A DNA stretch of 64,000 nucleotides, taken from positions 1,623,970-1,687,969 of the forward strand of contig JAFLBX010000001.1 of the NCBI GenBank assembly GCA_017303675.1, written 5' to 3'. The notes under the pieces are model-generated. The model was not told where the DNA came from, searched no databases, and saw only the letters and a program-made list of their open reading frames with translations. The DNA comes from Ignavibacteria bacterium (GTDB lineage: Bacteria; Bacteroidota; Ignavibacteria; Tepidaquicellales; OLB5). Within the stretch, counting starts at the first letter, position 1; each line of letters starts with the position of its first letter. Below, in pieces: positions 4,974 to 53,302 of the stretch. The translations under genes and the position numbers were made by a program.

Positions 4974-5729
4974 ATGTCAGGACACTCGAAGTGGTCAACA
5001 ATAAAAAGGAAAAAAGGCGCAATTGATGCTGCCAGGGGAAAAGTATTCACCAAAATAATCAAGGAAATTACCGTAGCTGCCAGGATAGGCGGCGGTGATA
5101 TCGAAGCGAATCCCAGGCTTAGACTTGCAGTAAACAATGCCAAGTCAAACAATATGCCTGCAGATAATATTACCAGGGCTATTAAAAAAGGAACCGGCGA
5201 GCTTGAAGGTGTAAGCTATGATGAAATAACATATGAAGGATACGGACCCGGCGGAGTTGCGCTGATTATTGAATCAATGACAGATAACAAGAACCGTACA
5301 GTTGCAGAGCTGCGGCATTTGCTTTCAAAACACGGCGGCAATCTGGCTGAATCAGGCGCAGTGAGCTGGAATTTTGAGCGCAAGGGTGTTATAACCGTTA
5401 CAAAAGGAAGTTACACAGAAGATGACCTGATGAATGTTATACTTGATGCCGGAGCTGATGATATGGAAGGTGAAGAAGATTTTTATGAAGTTACAGCATC
5501 ACTTGAAAACTTTGAAACTGTAAGAAAAGCAATCGAAGCATCAGGACTAAACGGCGCTAAGATAGAAAGCGCTTCGCTGCAATATGTGCCTAAACAAACC
5601 ACAAAGGTTGAAGGCGGTGCTGCTGAATCCACAATAAAGCTGATAAGCGTAATAGAAGATAACGATGATGTGCAGAATGTTTATTCAAACGCTGATATTG
5701 ATGAGAAGGTAATGGAAGAATTTGGATAA
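4974..5729 (+). CDS. YebC/PmpR family (TACO1) protein
   Basis: The 251-residue protein begins with the family hallmark MSGHSKWSTIKRKKGA and continues with GGGDIEANPRLR and YEGYGPGGVALI. It has the three-domain YebC length. YebC proteins were first described as DNA-binding transcription regulators. More recent work ties them to translation of difficult proline stretches. The gene sits directly before ruvC, a very common arrangement in bacteria (yebC-ruvC-ruvA). An array of 7-nt units starts two bases after its stop codon. Confidence 0.95.
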   Translation: MSGHSKWSTIKRKKGAIDAARGKVFTKIIKEITVAARIGGGDIEANPRLRLAVNNAKSNNMPADNITRAIKKGTGELEGVSYDEITYEGYGPGGVALIIESMTDNKNRTVAELRHLLSKHGGNLAESGAVSWNFERKGVITVTKGSYTEDDLMNVILDAGADDMEGEEDFYEVTASLENFETVRKAIEASGLNGAKIESASLQYVPKQTTKVEGGAAESTIKLISVIEDNDDVQNVYSNADIDEKVMEEFG

Positions 5730-5731
5730 GG

Positions 5732-5773
5732 TAATACAATTACAAATTTCAAATTACAAATTTCAAATTGATA
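5732..5773. repeat. Heptamer-period array between the yebC-type gene and ruvC
   Basis: Units TAATACA, ATTACAA, ATTTCAA, ATTACAA, ATTTCAA, ATTGATA run from just after the yebC-type stop codon into the ruvC start. The ruvC TTG start lies in the last unit, and no Shine-Dalgarno sequence is visible, since the array occupies its place. Confidence 0.65.
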
Positions 5774-6325
5774 ATACTTGGAGTTGATCCCGGAACGCTT
5801 TTTACGGGTTATGCCGTAATAAGCGGTGTAAACGAAAAGCTGGAAATGCTGTGCTGCGATGTCATTAAAATACCCGCCAAAAATAAATTTCCCGTTAGAT
5901 TAAAACAGATATATGATTCACTGGTTGATGTGATCGAGGAATATAAACCGGATGAATTTGCAATTGAAACCGCGTTTTACAGCAAAAATGTTCAGTCAAC
6001 ATTAAAACTGGGTCACGCAAGGGGAGTTTCTATACTTGCTGCAGTAAATAAACAGATTCCCACCACAGAATACTCACCCCGCGAGGTTAAAAAATCAGTT
6101 TCAGGCCTGGGAGCCGCTTCAAAGGAACAGGTAAGATTTATGGTTTGCAGCATACTGAATATTGATATTAATTCACTCCCCAAACAAACCGATATTTCAG
6201 ACGCAATTGCAGTGGCAATTTGCCATCACAATAAAATGCTTGGCGGCAGTATTAAAAAATCCAAAGGCAGCAGCTGGGAAGCCTATGTGAAGGAGAATCC
6301 GAAAAAAGTTAAAGTGCAAACGTGA
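5768..6325 (+). CDS. ruvC: Holliday junction resolvase RuvC
   Basis: RuvC cuts Holliday junctions held by RuvAB. The RNase H-like fold starts with GVDPGT (catalytic Asp7). Glu67 in FAIETAFYSKN and Asp142/Asp145 in TDISDA complete the acidic site. The 185-residue length includes a slightly long lysine-rich tail. The start is TTG at 5768, the only one that keeps the first beta strand. The last codons (VQT and stop) appear to be supplied by the adjoining CGTSAAA heptamer array, so the array has probably grown into the 3' end of the gene. ruvA follows after 223 bases; ruvB is not in the window. Confidence 0.95.
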   Translation: MIILGVDPGTLFTGYAVISGVNEKLEMLCCDVIKIPAKNKFPVRLKQIYDSLVDVIEEYKPDEFAIETAFYSKNVQSTLKLGHARGVSILAAVNKQIPTTEYSPREVKKSVSGLGAASKEQVRFMVCSILNIDINSLPKQTDISDAIAVAICHHNKMLGGSIKKSKGSSWEAYVKENPKKVKVQT

Positions 6326-6411
6326 AACGTCAAACGTGAAATGTGAAGCGTCAAACGTGAAATGTGAAACGTCAAACGTGAAATGTGAAACGTCAAACGT
6401 CAAACGTGAAA
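6321..6411. repeat. Thirteen tandem heptamers at the ruvC 3' end
   Basis: CGTGAAA, CGTCAAA and TGTGAAA alternate 13 times without a gap. A 21-bp higher-order unit (CGTCAAA-CGTGAAA-TGTGAAA) is repeated three times almost perfectly. The ruvC stop TGA lies in the first unit. The remaining 137 bases before ruvA show only imperfect hairpin words (CGCTGCGCTCAG and TTACTTCTGTAAGG). Confidence 0.9.
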
Positions 6412-6548
6412 TCTTCAATCGCTGCGCTCAGTAAGGCAAGCGTGAAAACTTTCTACTCTTACTTCTGTAAGGCTGGTGTGAAAAATTAAAAAGATTGATA
6501 CAATACTATTTTTTATTAAAAGTATTGAGATTTTATTATTAAAGATTA

Positions 6549-7160
6549 ATGATAGATTATATAAAAGGTAAGCTCATTAACAAAAAGGCTGCGCAATTAA
6601 TAGTTGAGGCGGGCGGAATAGGCTACAGTATTAACTGTACTTTGGGAACAATTGAAAATACCGGAAGCATAGGTGATGAAGTAATGATTTCTGTTCACCT
6701 GAATATAAAAGATAACCCGTTTTCAGTAACGCTTTACGGCTTCCGTGATGAAGCAGAAAGAGAGTGCTTCAGGCAGATCATCTCGGTATCAGGTATTGGT
6801 CCCAAAACCGGGCTGAGTATCCTTTCAGCTATCAGTTATAATGACTTAATCGATATGATATCAAAGGGTAATTATCATCCATTGACCTCAATTTCAGGTG
6901 TGGGTAAAAAAACAGCTGAAAGGCTTGCTGTGGAGCTTAAAGATAAGCTGGGCAAAGTTGAAACTGAAACAGCAGGCGTTAATTTAAATTCAGGAAAGCT
7001 TGGTGAGCTTGGCAAGGCATCTGAGGTAATTGGAGCGCTTATGGCGCTTGGCTACAACAGGCTTGAAGCTGATAAAATGGTCAGAACCATTTCATCACGC
7101 AGTGATTTTATGGATATGCCGACAGAAGCAGCGGTTCGCGAAATTTTAAGAGGGAAATGA
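6549..7160 (+). CDS. ruvA: Holliday junction branch migration subunit RuvA
   Basis: RuvA binds four-way junctions as a tetramer and loads the RuvB helicase. An OB fold (1-65) is followed by two helix-hairpin-helix motifs, SVSGIGPKTGLSIL (79-92) and SISGVGKKTAERLAVEL (114-130). A C-terminal three-helix domain that contacts RuvB (about 155-203) completes the protein. Length 203 is typical. It ends three bases from the convergent purF gene, with no terminator between them. Confidence 0.97.
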   Translation: MIDYIKGKLINKKAAQLIVEAGGIGYSINCTLGTIENTGSIGDEVMISVHLNIKDNPFSVTLYGFRDEAERECFRQIISVSGIGPKTGLSILSAISYNDLIDMISKGNYHPLTSISGVGKKTAERLAVELKDKLGKVETETAGVNLNSGKLGELGKASEVIGALMALGYNRLEADKMVRTISSRSDFMDMPTEAAVREILRGK

Positions 7161-7163
7161 CAG

Positions 7164-8708
7164 CTATCCCTCAAATTCTGTTTTTTCTATTTCTTCAATA
7201 GGTATCGGGTAATTACCGCTGAAACATGCATCACAGTAACTTATCTTTTCGCCATGCTTATTAATACCCTGCGGCACTGAATCATGCAGCTTATCAAGCG
7301 ATAAATACTCAACTGAATTCACATCGAGATATTCCCTGATCTTCTCTAGATCCCTATCACACTGGTTAGCGATAAGCTCGCTTTTTGAAGGGAAATCCAT
7401 GCCGTAATAACACGGTGAAATTATCGGCGGTGATGTTATTCTTAAATGAATTTCTTTTGGGCCGGCTTCTTTCACCAGCTTTACAAGCTGCCGGGCAGTA
7501 GTTCCCCTTACTATTGAATCATCAACTATTACAACAATCCTGTCTTTGAGAACAGATTTAACAGTATTGAATTTTGCTTTTACTTTTATTTCCCTGTTAT
7601 CCTGCCCGGGCTGAATAAATGTTCTGCCGATATAATGGCTTCTTATTAAACCAAGCTCCAGCTTAACATAAGGATTGCTTTTTATGGTTTCAGTAACGAA
7701 ACCAAGCGCAGCGGTATTGCTTGAATCCGGTACGCTTATTACAACTACTTTTTTATCTTCGATGTTCGCTTTTGGTGCAGGTTTTTCAATTGACAGGTTT
7801 TTCCCCAGCTTTCTGCGGACCTTATCCACTGTATGCCCGAAAATTGTAGAATCAGGGCGTGAGAAATAGATATATTCAAAAATACAGTGTTTTGTTTCAG
7901 GTTTTTTATCGATGAAAAAAGATTTAACTTCGCCGGTTCTGATCACTTCATCATCAATCTGAATAACTTCACCGGCTTTCAGATCGCGGATATAATCAGC
8001 GTTTATGATATCAAATGCACAGGTTTCAGATGCAAATACAAAGCTGGAGCCCAGCTTCGCCATGGAAAGTGGCCTTACGGCATAGGGATCCCTGATAGCA
8101 AAGAGCTTATCATCAGTTATAAGTATAATTGAATAAGCGCCCCTTATCTGCCTGGCAGCATCGAGGATCTTATCTATCATTTCATTTTCACGCGAGCGGG
8201 CAATCAGATGAAGGAAAATTTCGCTGTCTGTTGAAGTCTGAAACAATGTACCTTCATTCTGCAGCTTTTCCCTTAGCTCGCGGGTGTTGGTAAAATTACC
8301 GTTGTGTGAAAGCGCCAAATGTCCTTCTTTAAAATTAACTTTAAAGGGCTGAATATTAGCGCGGCTATCCGATGCACCGGTGGTGGAATAACGGTTATGG
8401 CCGATAGCTGCTGAGCCTTTGAGTACATTTGTTAAAATATTTTTCCCTGAAAATACGTTGAGTGCAATGCCGTGTCCTTTATGAATGTTGAACCTGTACC
8501 TGCCGTTATCCAGCTTTTCAGAAGCGCATATGCCGGAAGCTTCCTGCCCGCGGTGCTGCTGCGAGTGCAGTCCGTAATAAGTCATAACGGCAGCCTGCGG
8601 GTGGTCATATATGCCGAATATAGCGCAGTTACTGTGCGGTTTATCATCGCCGTCAAAATCTTTAGGATCTGAATCCATGCCTTTGGAGCTGATCAATTTA
8701 ATTTCCAA
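7164..8708 (-). CDS. purF: Amidophosphoribosyltransferase PurF
   Basis: PurF makes 5-phosphoribosylamine from PRPP and glutamine, the first step of purine synthesis. A propeptide precedes the catalytic nucleophile Cys28 (NCAIFGIYDH), followed by the class II glutaminase domain with HNGNF. The PRPP loop is VVIVDDSIVRGTTA (392-405). Cys275, Cys433, Cys492 and Cys495 match the four ligands of the 4Fe-4S form seen in Bacillus subtilis, so the enzyme is probably oxygen-sensitive. The frame opens with TTG at 8708. An ATG at 8678 would give a shorter propeptide, and neither has a clear ribosome site. The PHP gene lies 16 bases upstream in the same operon. Confidence 0.96.
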   Translation of the reverse strand: MEIKLISSKGMDSDPKDFDGDDKPHSNCAIFGIYDHPQAAVMTYYGLHSQQHRGQEASGICASEKLDNGRYRFNIHKGHGIALNVFSGKNILTNVLKGSAAIGHNRYSTTGASDSRANIQPFKVNFKEGHLALSHNGNFTNTRELREKLQNEGTLFQTSTDSEIFLHLIARSRENEMIDKILDAARQIRGAYSIILITDDKLFAIRDPYAVRPLSMAKLGSSFVFASETCAFDIINADYIRDLKAGEVIQIDDEVIRTGEVKSFFIDKKPETKHCIFEYIYFSRPDSTIFGHTVDKVRRKLGKNLSIEKPAPKANIEDKKVVVISVPDSSNTAALGFVTETIKSNPYVKLELGLIRSHYIGRTFIQPGQDNREIKVKAKFNTVKSVLKDRIVVIVDDSIVRGTTARQLVKLVKEAGPKEIHLRITSPPIISPCYYGMDFPSKSELIANQCDRDLEKIREYLDVNSVEYLSLDKLHDSVPQGINKHGEKISYCDACFSGNYPIPIEEIEKTEFEG

Positions 8709-38858: not shown

Positions 38859-39740
38859 TTGAACAAGCAAAGATTAAAAGCTAAAATAATAAAATATTTT
38901 CTGCAGAGCTGTGGTTCTCTTTCGATAATCATAGTTCTGCTTATATTTTTATTTCTGTTTAAAGAAGCTTTCCCGTTTATCGGCTCGCCGGGAATAGGCG
39001 AGCTGTTTCATAATATCTGGAACCCCGTTTCATTTCAAAAAGAAGAATTCGGCTTATATCCGCTTATAACAGGATCAATACTTGTAACAATCCTTGCAAC
39101 AGTTATAGCAATTCCATTTGGAATTATAGGTGCTGTTTATATTTCTGAAGTTGCATCTGCAAAAGAACGTGAATTTTTAAAGGCGTTCATTGAAATACTC
39201 GCCGGAATTCCCTCCGTTGTACTTGGCTTTTTCGGGCTTGTAGTTATAGCCCCTTTAATTAAGCAATTGTTTGATCTTAACACAGGCTTAACAGCGCTTA
39301 CAGGTGCGGTGCTTCTGGCATTTATGGCAATACCAACCATTATGTCTATTTCTGAAGATGCCATAAAAAGCGTTCCTTCAGCGTATAAAGAAGCTTCGCT
39401 GGCATTGGGAGCTAGCAAGCTTGAAACCATATGGAAGGTTGTAGTTCCTGCCGCGCTTTCGGGAATAGTTGCTTCGGTGATGCTTGGAATGGGCAGAGTA
39501 GTGGGCGAAACAATGACTGTTATGATGGTTACTGGCAATGCCCCGGTTATCAGCATGAATCCATTTACATCTGTCAGAACAATGACGGCAACAATTGCCG
39601 CTGAAATGGGTGAGGTTACAATTGGCTCACATCATTACATGGCATTGTTCTGGGTGGGGATCGTACTGATGCTTATGACATTTATACTCAACCTTATTTC
39701 ATACAGGGTACTTAAAAAGTACGGGATGATAGATAAATAA
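38859..39740 (+). CDS. pstC: Phosphate ABC transporter permease PstC
   Basis: A 293-residue permease with six helices and the EAA-loop region ASLALGASKLETIWKVVVPA. GIPSVVLGFFGLVVIAP is a PstC hallmark. The start is TTG at 38859 (MNKQRLKAK), 45 bases after pstS; no ATG gives the full first helix. Its stop overlaps the pstA start by one base. Confidence 0.95.
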   Translation: MNKQRLKAKIIKYFLQSCGSLSIIIVLLIFLFLFKEAFPFIGSPGIGELFHNIWNPVSFQKEEFGLYPLITGSILVTILATVIAIPFGIIGAVYISEVASAKEREFLKAFIEILAGIPSVVLGFFGLVVIAPLIKQLFDLNTGLTALTGAVLLAFMAIPTIMSISEDAIKSVPSAYKEASLALGASKLETIWKVVVPAALSGIVASVMLGMGRVVGETMTVMMVTGNAPVISMNPFTSVRTMTATIAAEMGEVTIGSHHYMALFWVGIVLMLMTFILNLISYRVLKKYGMIDK

Positions 39741-40594
39741 TGAGAAAAAACAGAACAGGCGAAAAAATTATATACTGGATGATGAGAGGTATAACATACC
39801 TTGTAGTGGTATTTATCGCTTATATTTTAATAGATATTCTCATTCATGGATTGCCGGCTATATCGTGGGAGTTCCTTACAGGGGATCCTGAAAAAAGCGG
39901 TGCAGAAGGCGGAATTTTTCCCGCAATACTTGGTACATTATTCCTGGTTATAGGTACCATAGTAGTGGCGCTGCCGCTTGGTATGTTCAGCGCGATATAT
40001 TTAACCGAATATGCAAAGCAGTCTAAGTTTACGCAGACTATCCGTATGGCTATTGTAACTTTAGCCGGTGTGCCCTCAATAGTTTTTGGTCTTTTCGGGC
40101 TTGGGTTATTTGTAGTTGCACTGGATTTTGGCTCTTCAATGCTTGCAGGCAGCTTAACCCTTGCATGTATGATATTACCCACAATAATTGTAGCCAGTGA
40201 AGAAGCATTAAAAGCTGTACCGAAGTATATGAGAGAAGGAAGCCTGGCGCTGGGAGCAACCAAATGGGAAACAATTTACAAAAATGTATTGCCGTATGCA
40301 CTTCCCGGAATGTTAACCGGTGCTATTTTAGGAATAGGAAGAGCGGCAGGGGAAACTGCTCCAATTCTGCTTACTGCAGCAGCTTTCTTTTTACCTGAAT
40401 TGCCAAGCTCAGTATATGACCAGGTAATGGCGCTTCCGTATCATCTTTATATTCTTGCAACACAGCATCCTGAGGCTCAGAAAATACTTCCCATGCAGTA
40501 CGGTACTGCATTAGTGCTGTTATTTTTGGTTATCGGATTAAATTTTGTTGCAATAATTTTAAGGATCAAAGTGCGTAAAAAATACAAATGGTAA
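39740..40594 (+). CDS. pstA: Phosphate ABC transporter permease PstA
   Basis: A 284-residue partner of PstC, with GVPSIVFGLFGLGLFV and the EAA loop GSLALGATKWETIYKNVLPYA. The start overlaps the pstC stop (TAATG), which couples their translation. Together they form the membrane pore for phosphate. Confidence 0.95.
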   Translation: MRKNRTGEKIIYWMMRGITYLVVVFIAYILIDILIHGLPAISWEFLTGDPEKSGAEGGIFPAILGTLFLVIGTIVVALPLGMFSAIYLTEYAKQSKFTQTIRMAIVTLAGVPSIVFGLFGLGLFVVALDFGSSMLAGSLTLACMILPTIIVASEEALKAVPKYMREGSLALGATKWETIYKNVLPYALPGMLTGAILGIGRAAGETAPILLTAAAFFLPELPSSVYDQVMALPYHLYILATQHPEAQKILPMQYGTALVLLFLVIGLNFVAIILRIKVRKKYKW

Positions 40595-40633
40595 CAGAAC
40601 TGAAGCATAATTAACGGAAACTGAATAAAGATA

Positions 40634-41410
40634 ATGGCTGAAATATTTTCTGATAATAAGAATAAAGTTCATGTGGAAAATATGAATTTTTACTACGGGG
40701 CTGTGCAGGCTTTATTTGATATCAATATGGATATTGCCGAAAAAAAAGTTACAGCATTTATCGGTCCATCAGGATGCGGTAAATCAACTTTTCTAAGAAC
40801 ACTGAACCGTATGAATGATATTATTGACGGAACCCGGATTGAGGGAAAAGTATTAATAGATGGTAATGATATATACGGACCCATGACCGATGTTGTTGCT
40901 TTGAGGAAAAAAGTAGGTATGATATTCCAAAAATCAAACCCGTTTCCAAAATCTATTTTTGATAATATTGCATACGGTCCCAGGCTGCACGGGGTAAAGG
41001 ATAAGAACAAACTGATGGAAATTGTTGAATCATGCCTTGTTAAATCTGCATTATGGGATGAAGTAAAAGACAGGCTTGATAAAAGCGCTATGGGACTCTC
41101 AGGCGGTCAGCAGCAAAGGCTCTGCATTGCCCGTGCGCTTGCAATAAATCCGGAAGTTGTCCTTATGGATGAACCGGCTTCAGCGCTTGATCCAAAATCC
41201 ACATTAAAGATAGAAGACCTGGTAAATGAGCTAAAGAAGGATTATACAATTATCATAGTAACACATAATATGCAGCAGGCAGGAAGGGTATCTGACTACA
41301 CTGCATTTTTTTATGAAGGACATCTTGTAGAGTTTGGAGCTACAGGACAAATATTCACAAAACCCAATCAAAAACAAACCGAAGATTATATTACTGGAAG
41401 GTTTGGTTAG
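40634..41410 (+). CDS. pstB: Phosphate ABC transporter ATPase PstB
   Basis: Walker [10 protein letters not shown] (44-52), signature [15 protein letters not shown] (about 156-170), Walker B VVLMDEP and the switch His in VTHNMQQA are all intact. The 258-residue length and [16 protein letters not shown] opening fit PstB. It powers phosphate uptake and, with PhoU and PhoR, belongs to the signalling complex. Confidence 0.97.
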
Positions 41411-41421
41411 AAAGAATAAAT

Positions 41422-42111
41422 ATGTTACACTACTGGCAAAGAGAAATTGAAAATTTAAAAAAACTTATACTAAGCCTGGGCGCGATAGTTGAAGAACAGA
41501 TACAGCGCGCAATGCTCTCGCTGGAAAGACGAGATACAGAGCTTGCCGATGAAGTTATAATCAAGGATAGAGAAGTTGATTCACTGGAAATATTGATCGA
41601 AGAAGAATGCCTGAAAATTCTAGCATTATATCAGCCGGTTGCAAAAGAGCTCAGGTTTGTGATAGCTGTTTTAAAAATGAACAATGACCTTGAAAGAATG
41701 GGTGACCTGGCTTCTAATATTGCTAAGAGAGTAAGATATCTTTCTAAAAAAGAAAAAATTGATCTCATCAGTGAATTCAGGGTTGTAAGCGAGAAAGTAC
41801 AGATGATGGTGAAAAAAAGTCTTGACGCACTTGTTAATACAGATGTTATGCTTGCGCGTGAAGTACTTGCGGCTGATGACGAAATTGACAGGTTAACAAA
41901 ACAAATGCTTAAACGAACCATAAATTCAATTGAAAAAGATCCTGAAAGAACAAAAGAGTATTTTAGTATCAGATCAATTTCAAAAAATCTTGAAAGAATT
42001 GCAGACTCAGCAACAAATATTGCCGAGGATGTAGTTTATTTATGCAGCGGAGAAATAATCAGGCATCAGTCTGAAGATTTTAATCCGGAAGATAGTACTG
42101 ATAAGGCATAA
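41422..42111 (+). CDS. phoU: Phosphate signalling protein PhoU
   Basis: Two PhoU helical repeats with the metal-site motif pattern in each half: VIAVLKMNNDLERMGDLASNIAKR and ISKNLERIADSATNIAEDVVY. Length 229 is standard. PhoU represses PhoR signalling when phosphate is plentiful. It begins 11 bases after pstB and ends the operon. Confidence 0.96.
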   Translation: MLHYWQREIENLKKLILSLGAIVEEQIQRAMLSLERRDTELADEVIIKDREVDSLEILIEEECLKILALYQPVAKELRFVIAVLKMNNDLERMGDLASNIAKRVRYLSKKEKIDLISEFRVVSEKVQMMVKKSLDALVNTDVMLAREVLAADDEIDRLTKQMLKRTINSIEKDPERTKEYFSIRSISKNLERIADSATNIAEDVVYLCSGEIIRHQSEDFNPEDSTDKA

Positions 42112-42138
42112 TTTATAATAAATATTCATTTTTTTAAA

Positions 42139-42164
42139 AAGAGGGTAAAAACCCTCTTTTTTTG
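42139..42164 (+). terminator. Terminator of the pst-phoU operon
   Basis: AAAGAGGGT pairs with ACCCTCTTT around AAAA, followed by a T run and G. Confidence 0.92.
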
Positions 42165-42253
42165 TTATTATACTCTTCTAAATCCATACAAATTAAATTA
42201 TTAAATATCATTCAATTTTTTTTGGGTATGTTTTTCAAGTTCTTTATATAATT

Positions 42254-42320
42254 TTAACAGTATTCTAACCAAAATTTAACTAAAAAGTCGAAATTTTAAC
42301 AAAAATCCTCGATTTTTAAC
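42254..42320 (+). promoter_or_regulatory. Putative Pho box upstream of the DUF47-pit operon
   Basis: Five TAAC half-sites at 42255, 42266, 42277, 42297 and 42317 are spaced 11, 11, 20 and 20 bases. It is the longest of the three boxes. The last two sites lie in a 20-base direct repeat (TCGAAATTTTAACAAA and TCGATTTTTAACAAA). Confidence 0.7.
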
Positions 42321-42342
42321 AAATATTTAAATCTAAACATTT

Positions 42343-42960
42343 ATGTTTAAAAGATTTCTACCAAAACAAAATAATTTTTTCGAGATCCTAAATGAGTTGG
42401 CTGAATCAGTGCTTGAAGCCGGAAAAATGCTTGATGAAATGATGGATAAACAGGATAGCTTTGCTGAGTATTCACATAAAATTCATTTTATTGAAAACAG
42501 GTGTGATGATCTGACTCACCAGGTTATTAGTGACCTGAACGATACATTTATTACCCCGATTGACAGGGAAGATATATTTGCTCTTGTGAATTCAATGGAT
42601 GATATTGTTGATACAATTGATACTATTGCTTCAAGGATGAGTATGTATAAACTTAAATCAAAGCTTCAGTTCGGACCACAGCTTACAGATATACTGCTGA
42701 TACAGACCGATGTGCTTTTTGATGTTGTGAAAAATCTGCAAAACCCTAAACAAACCACAGAGAAGATCGTACAGGTTAAGACCCTGGAAACAGAAGGTGA
42801 CATTGTATTCAAAGATGCGCTGCTTGACCTGTTTGAAAATGAAAAAGATGTGGTTGAACTAATTAAGAAAAAAGAGATACTTGAAATTATTGAAAGAGCA
42901 GTTGATAAATGCCAGAATGCTGCAACTGTAATTGAAGGAATATTAATTAAGAATATGTAG
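42343..42960 (+). CDS. DUF47 family PhoU-like protein (Pit partner)
   Basis: The 205-residue helical protein has PhoU-like metal motifs (EHxxD type: FIENRCDDLTHQV and DREDIFALVNSMDDIVDTID). DUF47 genes stand almost always directly before a Pit-type phosphate transporter and are thought to regulate it. The Pit gene follows three bases after its stop. The upstream Pho box puts the pair in the phosphate regulon. Confidence 0.93.
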   Translation: MFKRFLPKQNNFFEILNELAESVLEAGKMLDEMMDKQDSFAEYSHKIHFIENRCDDLTHQVISDLNDTFITPIDREDIFALVNSMDDIVDTIDTIASRMSMYKLKSKLQFGPQLTDILLIQTDVLFDVVKNLQNPKQTTEKIVQVKTLETEGDIVFKDALLDLFENEKDVVELIKKKEILEIIERAVDKCQNAATVIEGILIKNM

Positions 42961-42963
42961 AGT

Positions 42964-43950
42964 ATGTTTGAACTGGTACTTGTTGTTATTATAATAGCTC
43001 TGATATTTGATTTTCTGAACGGGTTCCATGATTCAGCAAATTCAATAGCAACAATTGTTTCTACAGGGGTGCTTTCACCCCAGAAAGCTGTAATGTTTGC
43101 AGCTTTTTTTAATTTTGCCGCAGCATTTGCATTCGGTGAAGAAGTCGCAAAAACTGTGGGCAGCGGCCTTGTTAAGCTGGATAGCGTTGATATTTATGTT
43201 ATACTGGCAGGTTTATTGGGAGCTATATTCTGGAATGTTTTTACTTGGTATTACGGAATACCGGTAAGCTCTTCGCATGCGCTTATTGGCGGTTACGGAG
43301 GAGCGGCAATAGCCAAGCTTGGCTTTAGTGTAATAATCTGGAGCGGTTTTGAAAGAGTTGTGATATTTATTGTATTGGCGCCGGTAATTGGTTTTATTCT
43401 TGGACTTCTTTATATGCTGATAACCAGCTGGGTTGTAAAAAATAAAAAACCGCGACAGGTAGATGGTGTATTCAGAAAACTTCAGCTTGTTTCAGCCGCA
43501 TTTTACAGCTTTGGGCACGGTTCAAACGATGCACAAAAAACAATGGGAATAATTGTTTCCGTTTTAGTAGCAACCAATTACCAGGCTGAATTTCATGTAC
43601 CCATATGGGTAGTAATGTCTTGCCATTTAGCAATCGGGTTAGGAACACTTTTCGGCGGCTGGAGAATAGTTAAGACCATGGGTATGAAAATTACGAAGCT
43701 CAAACCGATCGGCGGATTCTGTGCGGAATTTTCAGGCGCAACTACGTTGTTATTAACCGCGATCTTCGGCATACCGGTCAGCACAACACAAACAATAACA
43801 GGTTCAATACTTGGTGTCGGAAGCTTAAAACGGCTTTCAGCGGTAAAATGGGGAGTTGCAGGAAAAATTGTATGGGCATGGGTTTTAACAATTCCGCTTT
43901 CAGGCCTGGTAGGTGCACTTTGTTACTGGCTTGTCAGCCTTTTTCTCTGA
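42964..43950 (+). CDS. Inorganic phosphate transporter, Pit family
   Basis: Two inverted PHO4 repeats are clear: DFLNGFHDSANSIATIV (16-32) and SFGHGSNDAQKTMGI (about 183-197), both with the conserved GxxxxN/D signature. The 328 residues contain about nine to ten membrane helices. It takes up phosphate (often as metal phosphate) with protons or sodium at low affinity, complementing the Pst system. Confidence 0.95.
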   Translation: MFELVLVVIIIALIFDFLNGFHDSANSIATIVSTGVLSPQKAVMFAAFFNFAAAFAFGEEVAKTVGSGLVKLDSVDIYVILAGLLGAIFWNVFTWYYGIPVSSSHALIGGYGGAAIAKLGFSVIIWSGFERVVIFIVLAPVIGFILGLLYMLITSWVVKNKKPRQVDGVFRKLQLVSAAFYSFGHGSNDAQKTMGIIVSVLVATNYQAEFHVPIWVVMSCHLAIGLGTLFGGWRIVKTMGMKITKLKPIGGFCAEFSGATTLLLTAIFGIPVSTTQTITGSILGVGSLKRLSAVKWGVAGKIVWAWVLTIPLSGLVGALCYWLVSLFL

Positions 43951-45930: not shown

Positions 45931-45962
45931 AAAAAGGCGCTAACTTAAGCGCCTTTTTTTAT
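45931..45962 (+). terminator. Terminator of the M61 protease gene
   Basis: AAAAAGGCGC pairs with GCGCCTTTTT across TAACTTAA, followed by more T. Confidence 0.93.
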
Positions 45963-46022: not shown

Positions 46023-48635
46023 ATGGCACAGAATACTGAAAATACAGGAAGTAAATTTAAGTTTAAATCCCTTAAAGTTCACAATACGAACGACTGGATA
46101 CTTGGGAACAGGAAAAAATACAGGCAGGTATTTAATGCACGCGTAACAAAGTATATTTATGTTGAACTTGCAGTTTTTAACCTGCTTTTTACAAAAGAAG
46201 ACTGGAATATCACGGTTAATTTTAAAGCATATGACCAGGCTAATAAGCTTTTATGTGATAATAAAGTTGAACACAGGGTAGATAAAGATACAGATACTGC
46301 TTATATACGTTATTCATGGGGTAAGCCTGAACCGGGAGCATACTGGAAAAAAGATAATTACAGATGGGAAGCATGGGTAGATGGAGTATTGCTTTCTACC
46401 GCATATTTTTATACAATTGATGAAGGCGAAGTTACAGATGAAGGTAATCCTTACTTTAATTTAACTTCAATAAAGCTTTATGAGAGTCCATTTGAAACGG
46501 TGCCTTTTGGTGAAAGAAAATACCTGAAGACCTTTAACTATAAAACAACAAGATACATGTGGGTAGAAATTGAAGGTGATAATCTTCAGTTCAATAAAGT
46601 GCCATGGATGGGTGAATTTATCATAAGAATAAGGGATAGTGCCGGAGATTATGCTGCTGAGATTTTTGACCTTTATAATTATAATAATAATATTTCAAAA
46701 GTAAGGTTCATGCGGGGATGGGGCAGTAAGGAGCCGGGAAGCTGGTACGAAGGTACCTATGTGGTTGAAGTTATATTTCTGGAAAAGGTTATAGGAGCAG
46801 TGAACGTTAACTTTGGAACTGAAGAAGAAATTGATCCTGATGCCGGAACATTCTATTTACCGGGTGAAGGAATGCCTTCTTTAAGTAAAAAAAGCACTGG
46901 TGCACCTGAAAAAGAGCTTACAGAAGCAGAGATCATGAAAGAAATAAACGAAATGATCGGGCTTGCGACGATTAAAAAAGATATTGATGACCTGTATGAT
47001 TATCTGAAGTTCGTAAAGTTAAGGAAGACCAAAGGATTTGATGACAAGGAAAAGTTAAATCTACACGCTGTATTTACGGGTAATCCCGGCACGGGAAAAA
47101 CCAAGGTAGCTTTAATGCTGGGTAAAATTTATAAAAACCTCGGCATACTTTCCAAAGGCCATGTTCACGAAGTTGACCGGGCTGACCTGATAGGTGAATT
47201 TATCGGGCAAACCGGACCGAAAGTTAAAGAGGCAATAAAAAAAGCCAGGGGAGGTATCTTATTCATAGATGAAGCTTATGCTCTTGCCAGAAAAGGCGAT
47301 ACTGAAAAGGATTACGGCAAGGAAGTTATAGAAATAATTTTAAAGGAAATGAGCGACGGTAAAGGAGATCTTGCAGTGATAGTTGCGGGATACCCGGAGG
47401 AAATGCAGTATTTTGTTGGTTCCAACCCGGGATTAAAATCCAGGTTTACACGTTTTTTCCATTTTCCTGATTATTCTCCGACTGAATTACTTCAAATAGG
47501 AAATTACCACGCATCCAAAACTGATGTTGACCTGGATAAAGATGCTGAAGAATTCCTGTACACAAAGCTTGTTGAAGCTTACAGGGATAGAGATAAAACT
47601 TTCGGGAATGCTAGGTATGTAAATTCCATAATTGATGAGGCCAAAATGAACATGGGGCTCAGGGTTATGAATGAAAATCCGAATATTGAAACCCTGGATA
47701 ATGTTGCACTATCAACAATAACTACTGAAGACCTGAAAGATATTTTTTACAGCAAAGAATATAAAATTGTTGATATTCCGCCGGATGAAGAATTGATGAG
47801 AGATTCACTTGCTGAGTTGAATAAACTTGTTGGATTGAATGAATTGAAGGCTGATGTTCATGAAATGGTCAAGCTTGTGAGGTATTTCAGGGAAATTGGC
47901 AAGGATGTTACACGTTCATTTTCTCTTCATACGGTATTTACAGGAAATCCCGGAACAGGAAAAACTACAGTTGCCAGAATAATGGCGCGGATTTTCCGCG
48001 CTTTGGGTGTGCTTGAGCGCGGCCACCTTGTGGAAGTTGACAGGGAAGAGCTTGTTGCCGGGTACATAGGGCAAACAGCTATTAAAACCGCAGAGAAAAT
48101 AGATGCCGCTATGGGCGGCGTATTGTTTATAGATGAGGCATATTCACTTTCAAACCAGTATGAAAATGATTTTGGCAAAGAAGCTATTGAAATTATCCTT
48201 AAACGGATGGAAGATAACCGGGGTAAATTTGTTGTAATATGCGCCGGGTACACAGGTGAAATGGAAAATTTCCTGAAAACAAACCCGGGTTTAAAATCAA
48301 GGTTTGACAGGAAATTCAATTTTCCTGATTACAGTGAGGAAGAATTATTTGCTATTGCAAAAATAATATTATCAGGCAATGAGCTGGAATTTGATAATGA
48401 AGCCGGTGAGTATTTTAAAAAACATATCAGCTCACTTTACAGCGGAAGGGATAAATATTTTGGTAATGCCAGGGAAATACGAAAATCGATAAGTGAAACT
48501 GTAAAAAACCAGAACTTAAGACTTGCTGAAATACCAAAAGTCAAAAGGACTGCAGCTATGATCAAAACTGTAACTATAGATGATGTAAAAGAACTTGATA
48601 TAACCATTAAAGAAGAAAAAAGAATGGGTTTTTAA
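46023..48635 (+). CDS. Double CbxX/SpoVK-type AAA+ ATPase with duplicated N-terminal beta domain
   Basis: The 870-residue protein has two complete AAA+ modules of the CbxX/CfqX (SpoVK, EccA-like) type. Module 1 has Walker A GNPGTGKT (353-360) and Walker B FIDEA with Asp416-Glu417. Module 2 has Walker A at 641-648 and Asp704-Glu705. Both keep the FIGQT/YIGQT pore-type phrase and NPGLKSRF with the arginine finger. Ahead of them lie two copies of a domain of about 125 residues (about 13-135 and 148-270), each with a Y-x-x-VE strand, a late EPGxYW or EPGSWY phrase and a strand-rich pattern. They probably bind a partner or substrate. Related ATPases remodel RuBisCO or secretion complexes; neither target is seen here. 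A small membrane protein gene follows after 18 bases. Confidence 0.9.
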   Translation: MAQNTENTGSKFKFKSLKVHNTNDWILGNRKKYRQVFNARVTKYIYVELAVFNLLFTKEDWNITVNFKAYDQANKLLCDNKVEHRVDKDTDTAYIRYSWGKPEPGAYWKKDNYRWEAWVDGVLLSTAYFYTIDEGEVTDEGNPYFNLTSIKLYESPFETVPFGERKYLKTFNYKTTRYMWVEIEGDNLQFNKVPWMGEFIIRIRDSAGDYAAEIFDLYNYNNNISKVRFMRGWGSKEPGSWYEGTYVVEVIFLEKVIGAVNVNFGTEEEIDPDAGTFYLPGEGMPSLSKKSTGAPEKELTEAEIMKEINEMIGLATIKKDIDDLYDYLKFVKLRKTKGFDDKEKLNLHAVFTGNPGTGKTKVALMLGKIYKNLGILSKGHVHEVDRADLIGEFIGQTGPKVKEAIKKARGGILFIDEAYALARKGDTEKDYGKEVIEIILKEMSDGKGDLAVIVAGYPEEMQYFVGSNPGLKSRFTRFFHFPDYSPTELLQIGNYHASKTDVDLDKDAEEFLYTKLVEAYRDRDKTFGNARYVNSIIDEAKMNMGLRVMNENPNIETLDNVALSTITTEDLKDIFYSKEYKIVDIPPDEELMRDSLAELNKLVGLNELKADVHEMVKLVRYFREIGKDVTRSFSLHTVFTGNPGTGKTTVARIMARIFRALGVLERGHLVEVDREELVAGYIGQTAIKTAEKIDAAMGGVLFIDEAYSLSNQYENDFGKEAIEIILKRMEDNRGKFVVICAGYTGEMENFLKTNPGLKSRFDRKFNFPDYSEEELFAIAKIILSGNELEFDNEAGEYFKKHISSLYSGRDKYFGNAREIRKSISETVKNQNLRLAEIPKVKRTAAMIKTVTIDDVKELDITIKEEKRMGF

Positions 48636-48653
48636 AAATCAAAATATAATTTT

Positions 48654-49061
48654 ATGATAGAAGTATTGATAATTGTCGGGGTTTTTGCAGCAATAATTGT
48701 GTTTTTTATGTATGCTTCTAAAAGCGGGGCTAAAATGCTAGCTGAAAGAGAAGCCAAAATTGCCAGGGCAGAAAAAGGAAAAGCAATTGTTATAGGTTCC
48801 CACGCAGCCGGTATAAGAGGCACAGGCAACGGCGGGCATTACCAGGGATATGAAATGACGCTTGAAGTATCCAATGCATACAAAGAGCCGTACAGGGCCA
48901 AATGCGTTTGGGAAGTTTATCCTATGGGTGCCCCAAAAGTTCAGAACGGTATGGAAGTTAATGTGAAAATTGATGCAGAAGATGACCAGATCATTTACCC
49001 GATGGAAAACGGCCTTGCATTAAGCTGGAACTGGCAAATGATGAATAGAAAGAAAAAATGA
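48654..49061 (+). CDS. Small membrane-anchored protein of unknown function
   Basis: A 135-residue protein with one N-terminal membrane helix (about 4-22), then a charged helix (MLAEREAKIARAEKGKA) and a beta-rich domain (GHYQGYEMTLEVSNAYKE, AKCVWEVYPMGAPKVQNG). It is almost certainly co-transcribed with the double AAA+ ATPase, so it may be its membrane partner. The end lies six bases from a convergent gene. Confidence 0.65.
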   Translation: MIEVLIIVGVFAAIIVFFMYASKSGAKMLAEREAKIARAEKGKAIVIGSHAAGIRGTGNGGHYQGYEMTLEVSNAYKEPYRAKCVWEVYPMGAPKVQNGMEVNVKIDAEDDQIIYPMENGLALSWNWQMMNRKKK

Positions 49062-50673: not shown

Positions 50674-50819
50674 TATTCTATGTGATGATAGAAATCCTAA
50701 AAAATAACCCCCAATTATGAAAAGTATTCCTACATCACATAGGCAGGGTAATAAAGCTCCTTGAAAACAGTAATTTGCCAGTAAAGGAGCTTTACTCTGA
50801 AAATTTAAATAATAATGTG
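50674..50819 (+). ncRNA. Structured 5' leader with two long inverted repeats
   Basis: The predicted leader has a first perfect 10-bp stem, CTATGTGATG (50678-50687) with CATCACATAG (50733-50742). A second 11-bp stem follows, TAAAGCTCCTT (50752-50762) with AAGGAGCTTTA (50784-50794). The 3' strand of the second stem contains AAGGAG, a ribosome-site-like sequence held in a stem 30 bases before the ATG. It is a candidate cis-regulatory RNA. I could not match it to a known riboswitch. Confidence 0.4.
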
Positions 50820-52067
50820 ATGAGGAAAATAATTATTCAATTACTGTTTTTCATTTCTGTTTCAAATGCTCAATGGGTACAGCAATCAAGCGGAACAACT
50901 GTTACATTGTTTGATATTTCAATGCCGGGAGTCAGCACAACATTAGTTGGCTGGGCAGTTGGTTTAAGCGGAACAATTCTGCGCACAACAAATGGCGGTA
51001 CAAACTGGATTGCGGTAAACAGTCCTACTTCTAATTCTTTAACATCAGTTCATTGCTTTAATTCCACGTCTATATTGGCAGTTGGCTGGAACGGAACTGT
51101 TATTAAAACAACCAACAATGGGCTTGACTGGACTTCCAATTTTATCGGATCATTTGACCTGGAATCAGTTAGTTTTATTAATTCCACTACCGGATTTATA
51201 TGCGGTAAATCAGGGGGTATATGGAAGACAACTAATGGGGGGAACACATGGAACGGATTAGTTGTAAATTCTCTTGATAACCGTGAATGTTATTTTATCA
51301 ATTCTACAACAGGCTATACATGCGGACCTTTGATAAATACTCAAACAGCTTCGGTAAAAAGAACAACCAGTGGCGGAGCTTCGTGGCAGCAGCCGGTGAA
51401 CGTATTTGGCACATTAAACAGTATTACATTTTATGGTGATCAAATGGGCTGGAGCTGCGGAAGCCTGGGTAATTTAGCTAGAACAACAAACGGCGGTGTT
51501 ACATGGAGTACATATGCACCGATAAATTCTGCGATCACTTTATTTGATATATATTTCAGCAAACCCGAAGAGCTGGGTAACGGCACTACCGGCTGGATAG
51601 CTGCTGATTCAGGTAAAATTTATGTAACATCGAACAGCGGGGTAAACTGGGAAACACAGATTACGCCGGTAAACTATCCTTTATATGCAGTAAAAGTAAT
51701 AGGGAATACACATGGCTGGGCTGTTGGCGATAATGGAACTATTTTAAGAACTACTAACGGCGGTGTACCTATCGGAATTCAGACCATTTCTTCTGAAATA
51801 CCGGTAGGGTATAAACTTTGGCAGAATTACCCGAACCCTTTTAACCCGTTGACAAATATTGAGTTTTCTATACCAAAAGGAAACAATGTTAAATTAGAAA
51901 TATTTGATTCTGAAGGAAAACATATTGCTGAAATTGTGAATGGTTTTTATTCAGCCGGAACCTATAAAGCTGATTTCGAGGCTGGTAATCTGGCAAGCGG
52001 CATATACTTTTACAGTTTACAGGCAGGATATTTTTCTGAAACTAAAAAAATGATATTAATTAAATAA
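50820..52067 (+). CDS. Secreted Ycf48-like propeller with T9SS sorting domain (copy 1)
   Basis: The start at 50820 (MRKIIIQLLFF) gives a signal peptide ending SNAQ. The body is six to seven repeats of the Ycf48/BNR type, each with a TTNGGxxW-like phrase (LRTTNGGTNW, IKTTNNGLDW, WKTTNGGNTW, ARTTNGGVTW), which should form a seven-bladed propeller. The last 85 residues are a type A sorting domain with QNYPNPFNPLTNIEF and SGIYFYSLQAGYFSETKKM. It is a surface or released protein of unknown ligand. Copy 2 follows 11 bases later. Confidence 0.9.
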   Translation: MRKIIIQLLFFISVSNAQWVQQSSGTTVTLFDISMPGVSTTLVGWAVGLSGTILRTTNGGTNWIAVNSPTSNSLTSVHCFNSTSILAVGWNGTVIKTTNNGLDWTSNFIGSFDLESVSFINSTTGFICGKSGGIWKTTNGGNTWNGLVVNSLDNRECYFINSTTGYTCGPLINTQTASVKRTTSGGASWQQPVNVFGTLNSITFYGDQMGWSCGSLGNLARTTNGGVTWSTYAPINSAITLFDIYFSKPEELGNGTTGWIAADSGKIYVTSNSGVNWETQITPVNYPLYAVKVIGNTHGWAVGDNGTILRTTNGGVPIGIQTISSEIPVGYKLWQNYPNPFNPLTNIEFSIPKGNNVKLEIFDSEGKHIAEIVNGFYSAGTYKADFEAGNLASGIYFYSLQAGYFSETKKMILIK

Positions 52068-52078
52068 ATTTAATTGTG

Positions 52079-53302
52079 ATGAGGAAATTAATTATAATAT
52101 TGTTTGCAGTATCATCAATTATAAAAGCTGACTGGGAAACAGTAAACTCTCCTGTTAATTTTGATATTAACACAGTTAGTTTTATTTATAACCAGAACAC
52201 AGGTTATATAGGCTGCCTTGCAGGTAATATATATAAAACAACCAATGGCGGAACTAACTGGCAATTCCAAAATCTAGCCGGAGGCAATGGAATAGATATA
52301 AATGATATCTATATTAATCCGGTTAATAATAACTATGTATATGCTGCAGGAGCTGACGGAGTTATACATAAAACTACAAACGGCGGAAATAACTGGACAT
52401 TTATTGATGTAGGCAATCCCAGTATCACATCAATAATATTCTTTGATTTGCTGCACGGACTTGCAGCTTCTTACGGAACGCAGATGTTCATAACATCTAA
52501 CGGGGGGAACAACTGGAGTACAGTTAATACGGGTTTATTATCAGAAAATTACTGGGATGGATGTTATACATCTAACGCTGTTTACTTTTCCGCATCCGGG
52601 GGCAAGATAGTAAAATCAACCAATGGTGGAGTAAACTGGAGTATTCAATCAATTAATGAAAATGTGGCGGTATATTCACTGTATTTTAAAGATGTGAATA
52701 CCGGTTATGCAGGTACAGGCAATGGTAAAGTATATCAAACAACAAATGGAGGGACTAACTGGTTTCTGCTTTCAGTGTTAAACCAGCCAATTAGCATTAA
52801 CTGCATAACTTCAAACGGTTTTGATATTTATCTTTGCGGGAATTCCGGTTCAATTTATAAAAGACCTGGGGGAGGAAATACATGGTATTTGCAAACAACA
52901 AATTTCAATTCTACTTTACATGATTTATGCTTTACCGGTGAATTTACAGGTTATACTGTGGGAGTGAACGGAGTAATAAAAAAAACAACAAATGGGGGAA
53001 ATCCAATAGGCATTGAACCGATTGCCGGGAATATCCCTTCGGAATTCTCACTATTGCAAAATTACCCAAATCCTTTTAATCCTGTTACAAAATTTGAATT
53101 TTCACTCCCCGGCAGCGGGCATGTTGAGATCATAATTTATGATGCAGCGGGAAGAATTGCAGAAGTACTGATTAATGAAGAATTAAAAGCAGGGGTTTAC
53201 CAGGCGGAATGGAATGGTTCAGGATTCTCAAGCGGGGTTTATTTTTATAAGATAAGAACTAAAGAATATACTGAGACCAGAAAAATGATATTAGTTAAAT
53301 AA
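52079..53302 (+). CDS. Secreted Ycf48-like propeller with T9SS sorting domain (copy 2)
   Basis: A GTG directly precedes the ATG at 52079, which I choose as the start (MRKLIIILFAV). The signal peptide ends near KADW. Repeats YKTTNGGTNW, HKTTNGGNNW, FITSNGGNNW, VKSTNGGVNW, YQTTNGGTNW, YKRPGGGNTW and KKTTNGGNPIG mark seven blades. The sorting domain starts QNYPNPFNPVTKFEF and ends SGVYFYKIRTKEYTETRKM. It is a diverged tandem duplicate of copy 1 in the same operon. Confidence 0.9.
   Translation: MRKLIIILFAVSSIIKADWETVNSPVNFDINTVSFIYNQNTGYIGCLAGNIYKTTNGGTNWQFQNLAGGNGIDINDIYINPVNNNYVYAAGADGVIHKTTNGGNNWTFIDVGNPSITSIIFFDLLHGLAASYGTQMFITSNGGNNWSTVNTGLLSENYWDGCYTSNAVYFSASGGKIVKSTNGGVNWSIQSINENVAVYSLYFKDVNTGYAGTGNGKVYQTTNGGTNWFLLSVLNQPISINCITSNGFDIYLCGNSGSIYKRPGGGNTWYLQTTNFNSTLHDLCFTGEFTGYTVGVNGVIKKTTNGGNPIGIEPIAGNIPSEFSLLQNYPNPFNPVTKFEFSLPGSGHVEIIIYDAAGRIAEVLINEELKAGVYQAEWNGSGFSSGVYFYKIRTKEYTETRKMILVK

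Follow-up and report, generated by a model that had tools for sequence, protein, structure and literature searches.

A tandem-module AAA+ ATPase of the SpoVK/CbbX/EccA clade, headed by two predicted immunoglobulin-like domains, in Ignavibacteria and Bacteroidia

The window analysed here is a 64,000-nucleotide stretch of a 3.65-Mb Ignavibacteria genome. On its forward strand lies an ATPase gene (46023..48635) that encodes an 870-aa protein with the domain order Ig-Ig-AAA-AAA. It is followed after 18 bases, on the same strand, by an ORF for a 135-aa protein (48654..49061); both ORFs and their spacing are as the first-pass annotation of this DNA had described them. A hairpin resembling an intrinsic terminator (45931..45958, forward strand; an 11-pair stem and a T tail, a consensus match only) stands between an upstream peptidase-like gene and the ATPase gene, and the gene next downstream of the pair is in convergent orientation. 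Accordingly, the two genes probably form a single transcription unit. The locus sits in a housekeeping region that is syntenic within the genus. Upstream, at 38859-43950, there are pst permease, ATPase, PhoU-like and Pit-like genes that we take to be a phosphate cluster, and their synteny is largely kept across the genus. At 50775-53302, two neighbouring repeat proteins appear from their sequence to have beta-propeller-like repeats ('TTNGG') and, at the C-terminus, tails resembling secretion-sorting signals. A search for the client of the ATPase by way of its gene neighbourhood found no neighbour conserved across families, which fits a self-contained enzyme.

The greater part of the protein consists of two AAA+ modules of the CbbX/SpoVK type, identified by motifs and by alignment with CbbX, at residues 303-580 (46929..47762, forward strand) and 593-865 (47799..48617, forward strand). 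Module 1 has its Walker A at 47079, the pore loop GEFIGQT at 47193, Walker B at 47259, the sensor-1 AGY at 47385 and the Arg-finger region at 47424; the corresponding positions in module 2 are 47943, 48057 (pore loop AGYIGQT), 48123, 48243 and 48282. GNPGTGKT, LFIDEAY, the AGY sensor-1 and NPGLKSRF are present in each module. Both align with CbbX over the full length (E values of 4e-57 and 3e-55), and EccA1 also aligns full length with both, so that the two intact CbxX-type modules proposed earlier are complete by motifs as well as by alignment. The sensor-1 motifs, AGYPEEM and AGYTGEM, carry the GY signature with its conserved tyrosine, which nearly all relatives keep. NPGLKSRF aligns with NPGFRSRI of CbbX, from which we infer the exact arginine finger, and FGNAR, also found in both modules, aligns with FANAR of CbbX and is a candidate second arginine finger (sensor-2) region. 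About 31 orthologues were inspected, and almost all of them retain Walker A, Walker B, the GY sensor-1 and NPG(L/F)(K/R)SR; the module-1 sensor-1 or Arg-finger region varies in a few Bacteroidia and Chlorobiota rows.

The 870-aa protein most likely belongs to the SpoVK/CbbX/EccA higher-order AAA+ clade. Its best NCBIfam model is spore_V_K. The whole protein scores 531 bits with TIGR02881 (SpoVK; cut-off 422.95) and 462.9 bits with TIGR02880 (CbbX; cut-off 459.25), and both totals add up two modules or matched stretches. The SpoVK cut-off is passed only through this summing, and the CbbX total, with its two added stretches, lies just above the cut-off. A single module reaches about 273 bits with TIGR02881, and in none of 149 genomes did one attain the cut-off; assignment to SpoVK on a single module was therefore rejected, as was assignment to EccA (TIGR03922; 414.2 bits against a cut-off of 466.65). 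Through such summed scores, many genomes may carry the misleading name 'SpoVK' or 'CbbX'. The RuBisCO large-subunit gene (PF00016) is absent from this genome and from 20 relatives, in line with the first-pass statement that no RuBisCO gene is near. The protein also shares a generic AAA similarity with defence ATPases such as IetA (E = 1e-13). A role in phage defence or conflict is nevertheless very improbable: CbbX, SpoVK and EccA score far above the defence ATPases, the surrounding region is a syntenic housekeeping one, no match to the N-terminus was found among plasmids and phages, and no nuclease or effector partner was seen.

The N-terminus is predicted to form two tandem immunoglobulin-like beta-sandwiches, at residues 12-137 (46056..46433, forward strand) and 145-272 (46455..46838, forward strand). 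Local alignment of residues 1-140 with residues 141-275 gives a score of 98, compared with 31 +/- 5.7 for shuffled sequences (z = 11.8), and a profile-profile comparison of the two domains gives 98.6% probability over 122 columns. The duplication of a domain of about 125 residues, as first proposed, is thus a real repeat, and each copy carries the signature WG..PG.(Y/W) ahead of a G.Y strand. The beta character suggested for the domain agrees with the AlphaFold2 model, which was built from 19 aligned sequences and is all-beta with two sandwiches (mean pLDDT 86, pTM 0.80). Foldseek places the model closest to RbmA, a tandem FnIII protein, and to other Ig-like chains, and cross-matching within the Ig fold is broad (RbmA FnIII, transglutaminase, complement). 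When single domains are compared with VIA-align, 96-107 residues superpose at 2.1-2.8 A, with Z scores of about 10, on glycoside hydrolase sandwich domains and on the carbohydrate-binding domain of Wzt. By sequence, no significant family was found in a Pfam scan of the 19 N-termini at E values up to 1; the domain, called unrecognised in the first-pass annotation, indeed belongs to no characterised adaptor family by this measure. The single match among PDB sequences, to GmaR (E = 0.31), is at chance level, and Wzt_C (PF14524) was rejected as a sequence relative with an hhalign probability below 1%. Since there are fold matches, and neither a Pfam family nor a profile relation to Wzt_C, the N-terminal domain is an Ig-like fold with a sequence signature of its own.

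The structural matches raise the question of whether the pair might be a cytosolic glycan-binding module, similar to that of Wzt, in a machine that remodels envelope-synthesis enzymes or carrier-linked glycans, as SpoVK acts on MurG. For both domains, one of the best structural matches is the carbohydrate-binding domain of Wzt (106-107 residues at 2.5-2.8 A, Z 9.8-10.1), which shares 16% identity with domain 2. Several of the other top matches are glycoside hydrolase sandwich domains, and according to PMC10659427 two members of the clade, SpoVK and EccA1, have envelope enzymes as their targets. However, the failure of the Wzt_C profile comparison indicates no sequence relation, Ig-like folds match one another so broadly that the similarity may be one of fold only, and no envelope gene is consistently found near the ATPase. 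We regard the glycan-binding reading as unlikely. Among orthologues, identity ranges from 34 to 82% in the N-domains, as against 55 to 92% in the AAA modules; the N-domains diverge faster, as is expected for a part that recognises a client. Two copies of the same Ig-like domain also occur on their own, behind a signal-peptide-like N-terminus and with no AAA modules (L054 7475-8311, L116 7418-8338 and L117 7170-7997). The domain is therefore not tied to AAA+ function, which counts against the client-recognition role.

The 135-aa protein is predicted to consist of one membrane helix and a C-terminal beta domain, in a weak model (pLDDT 69). Its close orthologues have a single hydrophobic N-terminal segment, consistent with the one-helix membrane protein that had been read from the DNA. 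In a fold search, this weak model matched nothing under E 0.1, and its best matches include OB-like proteins. Matches to DUF3592 (best single-member E value 0.16 in Pfam; 7.5% by hhalign with DUF3592 members) and DUF2500 (best single-member E value 0.14 in Pfam) fall short of the Pfam cut-offs and do not establish either as its family. The probable two-gene unit, with its gap of 18 bases, its upstream hairpin and its convergent downstream gene, would suit an obligate two-component membrane remodelling complex. So would the distribution within the genus, where the small gene adjoins the ATPase gene in all 12 genomes that have the ATPase, even where the other flanks change. Outside the genus, the next same-strand gene in one genome (G408), 434 bases on, encodes a membrane protein with a zinc ribbon; its C-terminal domain shows a weak resemblance to that of the 135-aa protein, at a 32% probability that may reflect chance.

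The linkage does not extend further, however. The small gene is not beside the ATPase in any of the six genomes from other genera of the order (G408, G414, G422, G423, G433 and G434), nor in about 34 further relatives, mostly Bacteroidia. In the present genome an unlinked paralogue (C1:1254774) adjoins an unrelated oxidoreductase-like gene, and other paralogues likewise occur with no ATPase beside them; tandem duplicates in several genomes suggest that the gene has dynamics of its own. Some lineages have nothing on the same strand behind the ATPase, and four loci (L013, L014, L018 and L202) have other small membrane proteins directly behind it, which are 117-126 aa long and contain two or three hydrophobic segments. 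The two-gene pair of the first-pass annotation therefore holds for the genus only, and the absence of linkage in relatives, which that annotation had itself named as refuting its reading, is what is seen outside the genus: the 135-aa protein is a genus-level accessory at most and lies outside the general machine, and we think it improbable that the two proteins form an obligate complex. Of the undescribed remodelling complex that had been envisaged, remodelling fits the clade and the membrane-bound two-component form is not supported; 'undescribed' probably holds for the architecture and is wrong for the clade.

The N-domains were sampled within Bacteroidota, Ignavibacteriota and Chlorobiota, and relatives come from all three. 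The N-terminal profile has matches in 88 of 395 sampled Bacteroidia genomes, in 24 of the 395 genomes of the phylum sample and in 21 of the 44 genomes of the order; 79 of the 90 Bacteroidia matches fall in frames of 864-935 codons. With such a protein in roughly a fifth of the Bacteroidia genomes sampled, the Ig-Ig-AAA-AAA architecture is a conserved family and no local oddity. In a maximum-likelihood tree of 107 AAA modules, in which degenerate long-branch modules are unsurely placed, first and second modules fall into two separate clades, with support of 100/100 for the former and 100/98 for the latter. The tandem is therefore old across these Bacteroidota-type phyla, and either predates the split of the lineages or travelled as a unit. 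A 598-aa protein of one Bacteroidia genome (G146) has a single module, which falls inside the module-2 clade and is best read as the result of a loss of module 1. Further relatives, judged by frame length only, have short frames of 587-631 codons. Some lineages can thus do without module 1, a point against the two-module reading favoured below. Other irregularities are seen at individual loci. A broken extra CbxX module, in ORFs of 264 and 136 aa, lies just upstream of an intact ATPase gene in G414 (L113 8662-9872). Apparent frameshifts, which may be assembly errors, split the ATPase ORF inside module 2 in L021 (4968-7574) and near residue 27 in L004 (OLB5; 5001-5153 and 5072-7612).

Serial AAA modules are common among the CbxX-type proteins of these genomes. 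The clade of first modules is sister to the first modules of a group of Ignavibacteria proteins with a TPR-Ig-AAAx3 order (99/97), so an Ig-like domain before the first module is common to the two families. In both, the Ig-like domain directly precedes the first AAA module; the TPR-Ig-AAAx3 proteins differ from the window protein in having a TPR-like N-terminus, one recognised Ig repeat and three modules, some of them degenerate. At 6 of 15 Ignavibacteria loci (L055 1876-4286, L063 2734-5144, L064 2466-4879, L171 5633-8091, L240 10225-12653 and L241 2096-4504), the gene for a TPR-Ig-AAA protein with two or three modules is immediately followed by genes for an ABC transporter ATPase, about 240 aa long, and for a multi-span permease (PF16949), apparently a three-gene operon. 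In three genera of one family, the TPR-Ig-AAA gene is preceded on its own strand by groES-groEL, either directly (L051 3260-5210 and L063 7628-9591) or one gene away (L064 10495-12504), an adjacency that hints at a role of the TPR-Ig-AAA protein in protein folding. Other CbxX-type proteins have five or six serial modules (L165 156-5189, L166 4075-8253 and L167 4811-8968), and in L166 and L167 the gene that ends 15-34 bases ahead of the multi-AAA gene encodes a large protein containing a Ser/Thr kinase domain.

Based on these observations, we favour, with a probability of roughly 0.6, the reading that the 870-aa protein acts as a soluble remodelling chaperone: a type II, two-module AAA+ member of the SpoVK/CbbX/EccA clade whose Ig pair would select or dock the client. 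By analogy with type II AAA+ proteins, the two modules would stack as two hexameric rings, and the aromatic pore loops would pull a target peptide through the pore. The Ig pair, placed at the pore mouth, may recognise or dock a dedicated client, which would be activated, assembled or dismantled and not degraded. In the genus of the window, the one-helix membrane protein would be an addition behind the ATPase, perhaps as a tether, a regulator or a client. A bolder version is more doubtful: that a double-ring machine of the p97 type, found widely in Bacteroidota, recognises a central client through its tandem Ig domains and represents a type II ATPase invented independently inside the CbbX/SpoVK clade. 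The open-access literature yielded nothing informative about ATPases of the CbxX or SpoVK type in Bacteroidetes or Ignavibacteria, and the family with the Ig-Ig-AAA-AAA architecture is apparently unstudied.

The members of this clade that have been studied to date, CbbX, SpoVK and EccA, are single-module proteins, as the first-pass annotation had stated; the helical N-termini that it ascribed to them are not general, since the clade carries variable N-terminal domains of beta and other types in the account given by Delerue 2023 (PMC10659427). In the same paper, the characterised members are dedicated chaperones, the variable N-domains are proposed to recruit substrates, and no association with peptidases is found. 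Measured against that account, it is the tandem-module, Ig-headed architecture that is probably new; the clade and its variable N-terminal domains have already been described. Its occurrence in about a fifth of the sampled Bacteroidia would make it a widespread remodelling machine. CbbX, the activase of red-type RuBisCO (PDB 3SYL/3ZUH), has an AAA+ module that aligns full length and shares the same motifs, but it has one module, no Ig pair and a client whose gene was not found here. SpoVK, a MurG chaperone, belongs to the same higher-order clade and offers the proposed logic of a dedicated chaperone (PMC10659427); unlike the window protein, it is a single-module protein with a short N-terminal domain and is restricted to sporulating Firmicutes. 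EccA, the ATPase of type VII secretion, is also of this clade and has an N-terminal interaction region ahead of its AAA module, but this region is made of TPRs and a beta-helix, and there is one module. In layout, the window protein resembles the type II double-ring ATPases p97/Cdc48, NSF and Pex1/6, which have tandem complete AAA modules behind an N-terminal recognition region; p97/NSF and Pex1/6 are described in PMC5447069 as two-module double rings with flanking domains. These proteins belong to another AAA subclade, and where p97 has its N-domain the window protein has two predicted Ig-like sandwiches, for which a corresponding role in client recognition may be proposed by analogy.
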